Of a DNA stretch of 64,000 nt, positions 59,987-64,000 are shown in pieces. This DNA is from Bremerella sp. P1 (GTDB lineage: Bacteria; Planctomycetota; Planctomycetia; Pirellulales; Pirellulaceae). The number at the start of each line of letters is the position of its first letter. The stretch's first letter is position 1. The translations under genes were made by a program, and so were the position numbers. The stretch is from positions 1,054,001-1,118,000 of the forward strand of contig NZ_CP118164.1 of the NCBI RefSeq assembly GCF_028748185.1, read 5' to 3'. The notes beneath the pieces were generated by a model. It was not told the DNA's origin and ran no database searches. It worked only from the letters and a program-made list of their open reading frames with translations.

Positions 59987-60487
59987 TTACTGGTCGGTTG
60001 GCTCGTCGCCGGTTTGCAGTAGCGAGGTCAGTTCGTTTTGGATCTCGGCGATTCGCTGGGCGGTCGGTTCGACGACAGGAATCTTGTAGTTCCCTTCGCG
60101 TTTGAGTCCGACCAGCACCAGGCGTTCGATGCCGTCCTCACCTTTTTCCGTGTCTTCCATTCGCACGATCTTGCGTCGCACCATCAACAGCGCCACCACG
60201 TAAGCGGCGTCTTGCTGCTTAGGGTCTTGGAGCAATCGCTCGAAGTAATCGAGCATGATGTCGTGCGGTGCCCAACTGATCTTGGTCGATTGGGGATCGG
60301 GGATGGTGGCCTTCCACCAGCAGATGGCGTTCTCAGGCGGACCTTCCCAGGCTTCTTTGCTGAAGTCTTGCCGGACCACCTCGGCCCCTTCCGGGACGAG
60401 GACCGAAAAGTACTCGTCGCCGGGGCGCAGTTCGCGCTCGGTGGCGTGGCACTTTTTCGTGCAGCGTTGAATGTCGAAGTCGATCAT
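59987..60487 (-). CDS. Hypothetical protein, possible zinc-binding cap
   Basis: 166 aa from the ATG at 60487, which has GGAAG nine bases ahead; a start three codons earlier exists. The N-terminus reads FDIQRCTKKCHATERELRPGDEYFS, with C-x-x-x-C and His as possible metal ligands. The centre is helical and Asp-rich, the end is a polar tail (ELTSLLQTGDEPTDQ). No known family. It lies directly in front of the lipoprotein gene (23 nt), probably one transcript. Confidence 0.65.
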   Translation of the reverse strand: MIDFDIQRCTKKCHATERELRPGDEYFSVLVPEGAEVVRQDFSKEAWEGPPENAICWWKATIPDPQSTKISWAPHDIMLDYFERLLQDPKQQDAAYVVALLMVRRKIVRMEDTEKGEDGIERLVLVGLKREGNYKIPVVEPTAQRIAEIQNELTSLLQTGDEPTDQ

Positions 60488-60604
60488 GGCAGCCATCTTC
60501 CAAAAAGTGGGGGCGGCAGATCGTACGGAAATTGAAGCCGCGACTCAAGATGGACGCGGCTTGGGGTGCTATCACTTCACGATAGCACTTAAAAGAAGTT
60601 CAAT

Positions 60605-60847
60605 CTAATAAGCCGTGAAGAAGCGGTTGCTGCTGCCGCCGTGGCCGATGCGGATGCGGATCTGCTTGGCACACTTGGGGCAATTGCCGATGTAGTGCGT
60701 GCGGTCTTTGTTTGGATAGATCCGCGAATAGATACTGCAGCAGTCAAACTTCACCCCAAGAAACGGGCGAGGCTTACGCTCGGCGTCGGCTTTCTGCTTC
60801 GGCTGACCGTATTCTGGTTCGTTGGTGATGTCCAAGCGATCGGACAT
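60605..60847 (-). CDS. Small protein with a zinc-ribbon-like end
   Basis: 80 aa. Polar N-terminus, then RPFLGVKFDCCSIYSRIYPN and NCPKCAKQIRIRIGHGGSS: a C-C and a C-x-x-C separated by about 23 residues, a layout used by small zinc ribbons. No family recognised. It is the first gene of a possible three-gene run with the next two minus-strand genes (117-nt gap). Its start region is divergent from the leucine attenuator promoter. Confidence 0.65.
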   Translation of the reverse strand: MSDRLDITNEPEYGQPKQKADAERKPRPFLGVKFDCCSIYSRIYPNKDRTHYIGNCPKCAKQIRIRIGHGGSSNRFFTAY

Positions 60848-60981
60848 GGCCTGGGTCCCTTCTCTTACCCGCCTGGTAGTTAGAAGTCTGACTGCTTGAA
60901 ATATCGGCCAGATGCCCCGCCGATTTTGCCCAAATTGCCGTTAAGGTCCGAGGAAATGCCGGTTTACGAAAAAACGCCCGG

Positions 60982-61010
60982 TTGACCGAACCCGCACGCG
61001 GAAGTAGAGT
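60982..61010 (+). promoter_or_regulatory. Sigma70-like promoter of leuL-leuA
   Basis: TTGACC at 60982-60987 and TAGAGT at 61005-61010 are separated by exactly 17 bases, close to the consensus TTGACA-17-TATAAT. Transcription would start near 61017, about 35 nt before the leader-peptide ATG. Confidence 0.6.
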
Positions 61011-61051
61011 CATTCATAGCAAATCCACTCAAACGCGAGCAAGATTTAACC

Positions 61052-61105
61052 ATGAATCAAAACCTCCTGCTGCTGCAACTGCTGCTGATCACCTCCGGGT
61101 GTTAG
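61052..61105 (+). CDS. leuL: Leucine-rich leader peptide of leuA
   Basis: A 17-codon frame reading MNQNLLLLQLLLITSGC. Seven of 17 codons are leucine (CTC CTG CTG CTG, then CTG CTG CTG), clustered in one eleven-codon block. It stops at TAG (61103-61105), 35 bases before the attenuator stem and about 240 bases before leuA, the first enzyme specific to leucine synthesis. A leader peptide loaded with the end-product amino acid, followed by a terminator, is the standard design of amino-acid attenuation. The ribosome-binding site is weak, as for many genes in this phylum. I assign the symbol by analogy to enteric leuL. Confidence 0.82.
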   Translation: MNQNLLLLQLLLITSGC

Positions 61106-61140
61106 GGAAGGTTTCACGTTCGCTCAAAACGAGATCACCA

Positions 61141-61175
61141 AAAGCCCTAAGGCCCAACACCTTAGGGCTTTTTTT
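61141..61175 (+). terminator. Leucine attenuator terminator
   Basis: A perfect 12-bp stem AAAGCCCTAAGG (61141-61152) / CCTTAGGGCTTT (61160-61171) with loop CCCAACA and seven T. Two competing pairings are visible. GGTGTT(A)GGG at 61098-61107, overlapping the leader stop codon, can pair with CCCAACACC at 61153-61161 (9 bp with one bulged A). TTAGGG at 61102-61107 can pair with CCCTAA at 61145-61150. Either would break the terminator. A ribosome stalled on the Leu codons leaves that segment free; a ribosome at the stop codon covers it. Confidence 0.85.
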
Positions 61176-61345
61176 GTTGACGTAAGTTCCCCTGATAAAA
61201 CCATGGCAATCCCCCATCATTGCAAATTCGACGGAGTGGCCAGTGTGTCGATCCTCCTCCTAGCCGGGCCGGCTTGCGGCCGGCAGTGAGATTTTTCGAT
61301 TCCCACACATCACACAATCACTTCTGAACGACTTACGAATCCAAT

Positions 61346-62857
61346 ATGAGTACCCCGACTGTAAAAATCTTCGACACCACGCTCCGTGACGGCGAGCAAT
61401 CGCCTGGGGCCAGCATGAACCGCGCCGAGAAGATGGAGATCGCCCAGGCCCTGGTAGACCTGGGCGTCGATATCATCGAAGCCGGTTTCCCGATCGCTTC
61501 GCCTGGCGACTTTGAATCGGTCAAAGAGATCGCCACCAACATCAAAGGCGCCTCGATCTGCGGCCTGGCTCGCTGTAACCCCAAAGACATCGAACGCGCT
61601 TGGGAAGCATTAAAACATTCCGAGCAGCCGCGGATTCACGTCTTTCTGGCAACCAGCGCGATCCATCGCGAGTTCAAGTTGCGGATGACGCCTGAGGAAA
61701 TCGTCTCGCGCGGTGTCGACGGCGTGAAGCTGGCCGCCAGCTTCTGCGACGACGTCGAGTTCTCGCCGGAAGATGCTTCCCGCACCGAGCCAGACTTCCT
61801 GTGCCGCGTGGTGGAAGCGGCGATCGACGCCGGGGCCACGACAGTCAACATTCCGGACACCGTCGGCTACGCCACGCCCAATCACATGTACAAGGTCATC
61901 AGCGATCTGAAGAACCGCGTTCCCAACATCGACAAGGCGGTCATCAGCGTCCACTGCCACGACGACCTGGGCATGGCAGTCGCCAACAGCTTGGCCGGCG
62001 TCGAAGCAGGTGCCGGGCAGATCGAGTGCACCATCAACGGGATCGGCGAACGAGCCGGGAACGCCTCGCTCGAAGAAGTCGTCATGGCCCTTCGCACGCG
62101 GCACGACTACTACAACATCGGCACCCGCATCAACACCAAGCGTCTGGTGCCGACCAGCCGATTGCTTTCCAACATCACCGGTCTTCAGGTGCAGCGGAAC
62201 AAAGCGATCGTCGGCCGCAACGCATTCGCCCACGAGTCAGGCATTCACCAGGACGGGATGCTCAAAGAGCCGACCACCTACGAGATCATGCGGCCGGAAG
62301 ACGTCGGGCTCGAAAAGACCGACTTGGTTCTCGGCAAGCACAGCGGCCGGGCAGCGTTGTCCGATCGCGCGAAGGCCCTCGGCTATCACCTCTCGGCCGA
62401 ACAGCTTCAAGAGGTGTTCGACGAGTTCAAGAAGCTGGCCGATAAGAAGAAGGACATCTACGACGGCGACATCGCTTCGCTTTGCGACCAGCAAATCCGC
62501 GGCGAAGTTCGCGAAGGCTGGACGCTCGAAAGCCTGGACGTCACCCACGGCACCGGCAAGCCGCCGCACGTGAAGATGACCCTGCGTCGCGGCCACGAAA
62601 CCGAGACCGCCGAAATCTCCGAAGGAGACGGCCCGATCGACGCCGCCTTCTGGGCGATCGAACGCATCACGAGCGTGCCGATCACCTGCAAAGACTTCCA
62701 GGTCCACAGCGCCACCTTGGGCCGAGACGCCCTAGGGGAAGTCACCGTCGAAATCGAATCGAACAAACAAACGGCCCGCGGCCGCGGCAGTTCGACCGAT
62801 ACGGTAGAAGCGACGGTTCATGCGATTTTGGACGCGGTGAACCGGATTAGCGGGTAG
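61346..62857 (+). CDS. leuA: 2-isopropylmalate synthase
   Basis: 503 aa. HMGL-like TIM barrel with DTTLRDGEQSPGASM (metal and substrate site, about residues 10-24), HCHDDLGMAVANSL (H-x-H, about 210), NGIGERAGNASLEEVVMALR (about 235-255) and GIHQDGMLKEP, then the C-terminal LeuA regulatory domain of about 110 residues (TETAEISEGDGPIDAAFWAI), which mediates leucine feedback inhibition. It condenses 2-ketoisovalerate with acetyl-CoA. Expression is probably attenuated by the leader peptide and hairpin upstream. The 170 nt between the attenuator and leuA hold no further gene. Confidence 0.96.
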   Translation: MSTPTVKIFDTTLRDGEQSPGASMNRAEKMEIAQALVDLGVDIIEAGFPIASPGDFESVKEIATNIKGASICGLARCNPKDIERAWEALKHSEQPRIHVFLATSAIHREFKLRMTPEEIVSRGVDGVKLAASFCDDVEFSPEDASRTEPDFLCRVVEAAIDAGATTVNIPDTVGYATPNHMYKVISDLKNRVPNIDKAVISVHCHDDLGMAVANSLAGVEAGAGQIECTINGIGERAGNASLEEVVMALRTRHDYYNIGTRINTKRLVPTSRLLSNITGLQVQRNKAIVGRNAFAHESGIHQDGMLKEPTTYEIMRPEDVGLEKTDLVLGKHSGRAALSDRAKALGYHLSAEQLQEVFDEFKKLADKKKDIYDGDIASLCDQQIRGEVREGWTLESLDVTHGTGKPPHVKMTLRRGHETETAEISEGDGPIDAAFWAIERITSVPITCKDFQVHSATLGRDALGEVTVEIESNKQTARGRGSSTDTVEATVHAILDAVNRISG

Positions 62858-62958: not shown

Positions 62959-64000
62959 TTACGAAATTACGCCTTCTCGCTTTAGGGTATCAGCAACTTC
63001 ATGAAAAGCCCCACTAATCTTTCCGCTGTCGAAACGTATCTGACCAAGACCGTGAATATTTGAAAACTCTTCGCAATCACTCTCAAGCATAACTATCGCT
63101 TTTTCAAAACCAAGCTTTCCCTGAAACAAACCCGCTTCATGAACGACATTCAATCGAGCATGTACTCGATCATCTTTCTGAATATCCTCGGCAGTTAGCA
63201 CAAGAAAAGCAAAGCATGCTTCTTCGAGCATGGTCGTCAGTCTCGAAATCGTTGTTTGTCCAGCCGTTGCCTGTCGATTGAAGTCATCGCATGTAACACC
63301 GAGGCGATCTTGGATATAGTTCTTTAGTTCTAACCAAGCCGTAGACTTACCATGGCCGATGAATACCCTGGTCCCTGTTTGATCGCCCATTAGATAATCC
63401 TTCGTCTCGATTTTCGACTTGAGATAATTGTTAGTCCGTCGTGCAATCTTCGCAAGGTCTTGAGGGATTTCAAGTAAAGTACGAACCGATTGAAGAGAAG
63501 CCCGAAACGTCACATGTGGAGGCACAACAGTCCCCCCTGATACCGCAGTATGGTCGTGTGTAATTGGCGGAGGAGGCGGTGCAATCGATCGACAAAACTT
63601 CTCTTGAGGAACCATGCGTGCTTTATCAACTTGTGACTTTACCTTTTCAAGATATTGATCACTAGCATTGGAAAGGCACGCTTCAATGATGGCTAACAAG
63701 TCTTCTCTCAGATCGTCAATTTCCGCCGCATTTTCCTTGGCGACATCAAGTATCTCCTCAAAATCGGCTTTGCCTAGCTGCGCTACTAGATAGTCGTAAA
63801 TTTCACTATGACTATACTTTACCCAATCACCTTCAGTTGAGTTACTGAATCGATCCTGCAAACCCCATTGGCGGTCAAAGAATGCCCCTGATGGCGGCCT
63901 TTCGATTCCCTCATAATAAACGAGAGAGTGATAACCGAGCCACGACCCCGAATGGGCAATATCGAATTCATGCGAAAGTGTAATTGCTTTTTCAATTAAA
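62959..64000 (-). CDS. TIR-like (CAP12/Pycsar-type) nucleotide-binding protein, 5' end beyond window
   Basis: The frame is open from the stop at 62959 to the window edge; the first residues inside read LIEKAITLSHEFDIAHSGSW, so the protein is at least 346 aa and a TTG at 63861 is not the real start. The C-terminal about 140 residues form the TIR-like CAP12_PCTIR domain: TRVFIGHGKSTAWLELKNYI, AGQTTISRLTTMLEEACFAFLVLTAEDI (split here at 20), ARLNVVHEAGLFQGKLGFEKAIVM and SNIHGLGQIRFDSGKISGAF. Proteins with this domain act in CBASS/Pycsar-type anti-phage defence and deplete NAD when activated. The N-terminal part (about residues 1-140 of the visible protein) is unassigned. The gene is AT-richer than its neighbours, consistent with transfer. 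Confidence 0.75.
   Translation of the reverse strand, partial: LIEKAITLSHEFDIAHSGSWLGYHSLVYYEGIERPPSGAFFDRQWGLQDRFSNSTEGDWVKYSHSEIYDYLVAQLGKADFEEILDVAKENAAEIDDLREDLLAIIEACLSNASDQYLEKVKSQVDKARMVPQEKFCRSIAPPPPPITHDHTAVSGGTVVPPHVTFRASLQSVRTLLEIPQDLAKIARRTNNYLKSKIETKDYLMGDQTGTRVFIGHGKSTAWLELKNYIQDRLGVTCDDFNRQATAGQTTISRLTTMLEEACFAFLVLTAEDIQKDDRVHARLNVVHEAGLFQGKLGFEKAIVMLESDCEEFSNIHGLGQIRFDSGKISGAFHEVADTLKREGVIS

Follow-up and report, generated by a model that had tools for sequence, protein, structure and literature searches.

A predicted leucine-responsive attenuator and a second short reading frame upstream of leuA in Bremerella sp. P1 and other Planctomycetota

The gene presumed to be controlled at this locus is leuA, which encodes a 2-isopropylmalate synthase of 503 amino acids and lies at positions 61346 to 62857 on the plus strand of the window, the whole stretch of 64,000 nucleotides of Bremerella sp. 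P1 DNA that was analyzed. A profile search assigned leuA to NF002086 (E 4.5e-228) and TIGR00973, both above their cut-offs, and its product carries HMGL-like and LeuA dimerisation domains. Convergent with leuA is a gene on the minus strand (62959 to 63999, running off the window) whose product gave a match to the CAP12/Pycsar effector TIR domain (PF10137, E 1.1e-23) and is possibly an anti-phage defence effector.

Several features precede leuA on the plus strand. A predicted sigma-70-type promoter consists of TTGACC (60982 to 60987) and TAGAGT (61005 to 61010) separated by 17 nt, with 9 of 12 consensus matches, and is kept in the aligned genus. ORF1 (61052 to 61105) runs from an ATG at 61052 to a TAG stop ending at 61105 and encodes the leader peptide MNQNLLLLQLLLITSGC. 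Its 17 codons include seven for leucine, arranged as CTC CTG CTG CTG (61064 to 61075) and CTG CTG CTG (61079 to 61087). The promoter site at 60982 to 61010 and the frame with its leucine codons were read directly, just as the original prediction had described them. An intrinsic terminator follows at 61140 to 61175, with a 7-nt loop and a run of seven T (61169 to 61175). The terminator with its U-run was present as originally described, but its stem (61140 to 61152 with 61160 to 61172) has 13 Watson-Crick pairs rather than the 12 given earlier.

A second short frame, ORF2 (61203 to 61289), had been missed. It encodes MAIPHHCKFDGVASVSILLLAGPACGRQ and is placed by alignment of its ATG and by frame and codon evidence. 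ORF2 contains three consecutive leucine codons, CTC CTC CTA (61254 to 61262), and a detected hairpin (61268 to 61284) with a 7-bp stem formed by 61268 to 61274 and 61278 to 61284; a covariance model of the element matched the window with an E value of 1.2e-7.

Recurrence of the leucine-rich leader and terminator upstream of leuA

A strict detector required a frame 8 to 35 codons long in which a stretch of 12 residues held at least 6 Leu, followed by a T-tailed hairpin ending 40 to 95 nt beyond. On both strands of the 64-kb window, the only match for Leu was the ORF1 leader. With other residues in place of Leu, the window gave one match each for Gly, Gln, and Ser, all on the minus strand, and the Gln match was the antisense of the ORF1 leader. 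The strict detector was positive for Leu in 72 of 121 regions upstream of leuA, which came from the window, 80 named loci, and 40 further stretches; none of the other 19 residues gave a single match on the same strand. The reverse strand of these regions yielded no match for Leu, 3 for Arg, and 1 each for Gly and Gln. When the 121 regions were dinucleotide shuffled with the real terminator positions kept, the mean number of positives was 0.08 and the maximum 1 in 50 rounds.

A looser detector (at least 5 Leu in 12, T-runs slightly relaxed) was applied to 170 leuA upstream regions. The leuA sample was limited to the stronger LeuA matches and covered 90 genomes out of 363 that had a match. Leader and terminator were found together in 119 of the 170 regions, so that the conserved leucine-rich frame that the original prediction had expected in relatives is indeed there. 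The positives were the window, 55 of the 80 named loci, 5/5 regions of the same genus, 9/13 of the same family, 15/19 of the same order, 27/34 of the same class, and 7/18 elsewhere in the phylum. Cultured positives included Rhodopirellula maiorica (strain SM1), R. sallentina, R. rubra, Stieleria tagensis, Neorhodopirellula pilleata, and Roseiconus nitratireducens. The best other residue reached at most 3 in any group (Arg, 3/80), and a few single positives may therefore be spurious; two of them, L126 and L143, look weak. The pair was not detected by the looser detector in 51 of the 170 regions, Rubripirellula obstinata among them. In some of these (L040, L046, and L038), a weaker or more distant form can be seen, and the remainder seem to have no attenuator device.

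The spacing of the two elements varies little. In leaders of the ORF1 type, the distance from the stop codon to the end of the stem has a median of 64 nt (10th to 90th percentiles, 57 to 76). Four loci of the same class (L122, L132, L138, and L141) have a leucine-rich leader only about 95 to 130 nt before leuA, with a strong hairpin and an interrupted T-run directly 5′ of leuA, and were missed by the strict detector.

Other biosynthetic genes served as controls. In 25 genomes of the order for each gene, no attenuator was detected before ilvB (Leu 6, Ile 5, Val 5, or their sum 8 of 12, with a hairpin 30 to 110 nt away) or before hisG (His 4 of 12, same hairpin distance). On the strength of the shuffles, the other residues, the reverse strand, and the ilvB and hisG controls, a chance origin of the leader and terminator was rejected.

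Alternative folds and the attenuator model

Within the window, an antiterminator of 10 bp can form between a 5′ strand over the ORF1 UAG stop codon (61097 to 61107) and a 3′ strand within the 5′ arm and loop of the terminator (61145 to 61155). The paired residues are 61097 to 61100 and 61102 to 61107 with 61145 to 61150 and 61152 to 61155. An antiterminator over the leader stop codon had been foreseen with two possible partners. The one at 61145 to 61150 proved the better and extends to the 10 bp given here; pairing with 61153 to 61161 was rejected as the best antiterminator because 61145 to 61155 pairs better.

Covariation was tested with a strand reaching from −12 to +14 nt around the end of the leader stop codon, paired with the 5′ arm and loop of the terminator, in 116 detected loci dereplicated to 101. 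The stop codon strand paired far better with its own terminator (mean, −16.98 kcal/mol) than with permuted ones (−13.45 kcal/mol; z −12.6, n = 101), so that the covarying stems named in the original prediction are borne out. Among the four control segments, the spacer had a z value of +1.1, the stretch downstream of the terminator +0.8, and the one preceding the leader −1.5; the Leu codon run, at −4.1, showed some preference as well. Measured against dinucleotide-shuffled strands, the antiterminator had a mean z of −1.85, with only 48 of 101 loci reaching −2, and the controls had 4 to 8. The duplex ran across the stop codon in 84 of the 101 loci. The stop codon itself was UAG in 67, UGA in 26, and UAA in 8, and it followed the last Leu pair at a median distance of 18 nt.

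The position of the ribosome decided the outcome of in silico folding. With the A site placed on CTC 61064, CTG 61070, CAA 61076, or CTG 61082 and the 3′ arm of the terminator not yet made, the antiterminator formed; with the ribosome on the stop codon, there was none. Folding with masked bases, as the original prediction had proposed, thus gave the expected result. In the ribosome-free RNA, folded for the window only, the first leader codons paired with the 5′ strand of the antiterminator and the terminator formed. For the full-length RNA, the terminator was the best fold in every ribosome state tried; the switch must therefore be kinetic, like that of classical attenuators.

Not all loci place the antiterminator over the stop codon. 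The stop codon strand pairs poorly in seven Rhodopirellula- or Stieleria-like leaders, among them L016, L032, L042, L066, and L067. Their frames extend 33 to 48 nt beyond the Leu run, and the stop codon lies outside the antiterminator. There, the partner of the terminator is a strand within the frame that begins 0 to 10 nt behind the last Leu pair (−17.2 to −24.8 kcal/mol; z −1.8 to −5.1 versus shuffles), and the masking step must therefore differ. Stieleria tagensis and Roseiconus nitratireducens have their antiterminator within the frame in this way. The spacing between Leu codons and antiterminator, rather than the stop codon, seems to be the conserved quantity. In L016, L042, and L097, the ORF1 leaders have the extension EMRVCT in common, following the Leu run. 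Because the RNA behind this extension, GAGATGAGGGTTTG, forms the antiterminator strand, the peptide similarity is probably a by-product.

These data make it very probable that transcription into leuA is attenuated by a ribosome-mediated, leucine-responsive device built around ORF1. Its parts, their conservation and spacing, the covariation, and the two alternative folds come from the sequence and its computation, and comparison among relatives supports the original prediction of a leucine attenuator before leuA well; ribosome stalling, termination, and the response to leucine are what we infer. Transcription would start upstream of the leader, as judged from the promoter site, and ORF1 would be translated by a ribosome behind the polymerase. 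When leucyl-tRNA is plentiful, the ribosome would get to the UAG stop codon and cover 61097 to 61107. The terminator (61140 to 61172) would therefore fold, and transcription would stop before leuA. When leucyl-tRNA is scarce, the ribosome would stall on the Leu codons of ORF1 and leave 61097 to 61107 free. This strand would pair with 61145 to 61155 once that segment is made, the 5′ arm of the terminator would be taken, and the polymerase would continue into leuA.

Two other explanations for the arrangement were considered. One holds that the hairpin is an ordinary terminator, that the leucine-rich frame before it arose by chance, and that the leuA promoter lies downstream of the hairpin. The strand upstream does carry other genes, and a 17-codon frame taken alone is common. 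However, leader and terminator recur at a near-constant distance in otherwise divergent relatives, and neither shuffles nor other residues reproduced the pair. The promoter data likewise give no support to a start downstream of the hairpin, which the original prediction had named as evidence against itself. TTGACC-17-TAGAGT is the sole promoter-like site with at least 9 of 12 matches on either strand of 60850 to 61400, where shuffles led us to expect 0.4. Of 116 loci, 71 have a site of this quality in the 120 nt preceding the leader, versus none of 88 stretches between terminator and leuA, the base composition of the two sets being unmatched. TAGA[GC]T likewise occurs upstream of the leader in 34/116 and between terminator and leuA in 1/88, again with unmatched composition. 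The distribution of these sites argues against a promoter behind the hairpin, and the explanation by a chance frame appears very improbable. The other explanation is a T-box or metabolite riboswitch, with the leucine-rich frame a coincidence. In some bacteria, T-boxes or other RNA elements do control leuA, and the leader here has a terminator. But a search of 60000 to 62500 of the window against Rfam (E up to 5) found no T-box and no Leu leader, only one chance sRNA match far below its cut-off on the opposite strand; the leaders of 14 relatives had no Rfam match at the gathering threshold; and the frame and the two mutually exclusive stems are the only strongly conserved features found. We regard a riboswitch of this kind as extremely improbable.

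A second short frame between the terminator and leuA

ORF2 lies between the terminator and leuA. Its core encodes L-[L/V/A]-L, and the 7-bp hairpin starts about 5 nt further on. All 11 sequences compared (six from the genus of the window, four from a neighbouring genus, and L001) share the ORF2 ATG in the alignment. An ORF2 detector was positive in 34 of the 121 leuA regions; shuffles gave 1.35 and the reverse strand 2. A narrower geometry, chosen once the hits were known, gave 27, with 0.05 for shuffles and 0 for the reverse strand. In 24 aligned loci, the hairpin showed 15 two-sided changes, its throughout-paired stem being a result of the selection of loci, and two of five measures of its variation were not above shuffles (172 and 410 of 500).

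A covariance model of ORF2 with a threshold of E < 1e-3 matched 26 of the 80 named loci, 22 of which had been used to build it; the new ones were L017, L038, L045, and L057. ORF1 and its terminator were also found by the looser detector in 24 of these 26 loci, and L038 and L046 have them in a more distant or weaker form. The model matched 14 of 70 leuA loci of the genomes labelled G and none of the 52 class and phylum leuA loci searched. At E < 1e-4, 39 genomes of the order gave 17 matches, 16 of them just before leuA (including two inverted copies in one contig) and one elsewhere (G394:C230). With 16 of the 17 strong matches in these genomes before leuA, ORF2 was rejected as a dispersed repeat. 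Inspected matches with E values of 1e-4 to 1e-3 comprised one before leuA (G371) and four that were not (L169 to L172), and weaker matches up to an E value of 1 numbered 2 to 37 per genome. The strong match away from leuA (L255, G394:C230:4265-4318; E 3.2e-5) reads Leu-Leu-Leu-Pro and then a hairpin. In the same genome, the contig of L158 (G394:C241) shows two ORF2-leuA starts that face opposite ways at a distance of about 340 bases, perhaps an assembly artefact.

Codon usage was analyzed in 40 dereplicated loci of 52. The ORF2 frame had no stop across the 15 preceding codons and the three codons of the Leu triplet, and the other two frames had 12 and 18. Codons 1 and 3 of the triplet were Leu in 40 of 40 loci, a result favoured by the search (L087, dropped in dereplication, has Gln at codon 1), and were written as TTG, CTG, or CTC at position 1 and as TTG, CTA, CTT, or CTG at position 3. 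Codon 2 was Leu in 22, Val in 14, and Ala in 4. Upstream, codon −3 was Arg in 29 of 40 (AGG in 23, with AGA, CGA, CGT, CGG, and one more among the others) and codon −2 was Ala in 24 of 40, via all four codons. Neither residue was required by the first ORF2 detector, and Arg-Ala is absent in the genus of the window. We read these patterns as pointing to a translated frame with some constraint on its peptide. The use of AGG in 23 of the 29 Arg codons means that a constraint on the RNA is possible for part of the Arg signal.

RNA partners of ORF2 were also sought. Its Leu codons paired with their own leuA start no better than with permuted ones (z 0.27, n = 28), and a search for an alternative pairing partner of the hairpin arms found none. 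Pairing that would form a base stem between ORF2 and the sequence preceding leuA was enriched (z 6.9, n = 37), but an upstream control segment came close to it (z 5.8); the energy version yielded −7.0 versus −5.0. Single loci, e.g., L061, L057, L025, and L036, show more extensive pairing of this kind.

Most simply, and tentatively, ORF2 may be a second leucine-dependent control acting on leuA. Read-through transcripts would carry ORF2, and pausing of a ribosome at the ORF2 Leu codons would keep the hairpin 5 nt downstream open. Alternatively, ORF1 works as proposed and ORF2 is no leucine sensor: the peptide R-A-x-L-[L/V/A]-L-x-x-P would be conserved for itself, for instance because it is a functional micropeptide or arrests the ribosome as a nascent chain, and the hairpin would serve otherwise. 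The frequent Arg at −3, the Ala at −2 encoded in all four ways, and the replacement of the middle Leu by Val or Ala speak for a conserved peptide. However, the prevalence of AGG leaves room for an RNA constraint, Leu is kept at positions 1 and 3 with the search bias and the Gln of L087 noted above, Arg-Ala is missing from the window's own genus, and the strong ORF2 matches sit before leuA. A role of the peptide apart from leucine sensing is on balance somewhat unlikely. The sensor reading can be carried further. Many leuA genes of the Pirellulales might have two serial leucine sensors, namely the ORF1 transcription attenuator and, on each read-through transcript, a translated ORF2 in which the stretch R-A-x-L-[L/V/A]-L-x-x-P and the hairpin pause or arrest the ribosome and so set leuA translation; we consider this combination doubtful. 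If it were true, the conservation beyond Leu would reflect a nascent-peptide effect of ORF2, which we do not know for leucine genes.

Relation to known leucine leaders and implications

The enteric leu operon is controlled by an attenuator (leuL; Leu leader in Rfam) with a leucine-rich leader peptide, a terminator before leuA, and a mutually exclusive antiterminator. The planctomycete leader shares these three features, and control by leucyl-tRNA is expected here too. Unlike leuL, it belongs to another phylum, has no match to the Rfam Leu leader, in most loci has the stop codon of the leader within its antiterminator strand, and is followed by ORF2 in part of the order.

Related arrangements have been described in other bacteria. 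In PMC1262725, attenuators of Streptomyces leuS with a Leu leader, an antiterminator, and a terminator are predicted by comparison; the layout is the same as here, but the gene is that of leucyl-tRNA synthetase and the organisms are Actinobacteria. The same paper describes the actinobacterial LEU element before leuA, which ORF2 resembles in combining a short frame of Leu codons with an RNA structure and in having no terminator of its own. In the LEU element, base pairing joins the run of Leu codons to the leuA Shine-Dalgarno box, and there is a pseudoknot (PMC1262725). The Leu codons of ORF2, by contrast, show no preference for the leuA start and are followed by a simple hairpin. The ilv-leu operon of Staphylococcus aureus is also reported to have a leucine-rich attenuator peptide for branched-chain genes (PMC5794164), but in the Firmicutes and for a whole operon. 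The tandem attenuators of Salmonella mgtCBR are reported to have two short frames per leader, as here (PMC3641672), with an unrelated gene and unrelated signals.

Excerpts of PMC4833913 report counts of leader genes near structural genes in several phyla, including Planctomycetes, and mention neither leuA nor leucine. leuA is likewise absent from the main texts of PMC2965389, PMC8632094, PMC11109978, PMC2864571, and PMC6429828. Among the titles and abstract openings listed by a search of the openly available literature, none described a leuA attenuator or ORF2 for Planctomycetota. The mechanism is already known; as far as this literature search reaches, what is new is that it is widespread in Planctomycetota and that ORF2 stands in tandem with it.

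The analysis gives leader-peptide attenuation in Planctomycetota strong comparative support, as a device spread through the phylum and more than a single case. ORF2 is a conserved element without a name that many relatives of the order carry behind the ORF1 attenuator. Planctomycetes have an unusual cell plan. An attenuator needs a ribosome close behind the polymerase, and the predicted device therefore bears on transcription-translation coupling in planctomycete cells, in which it should turn leuA on only when leucine is short.
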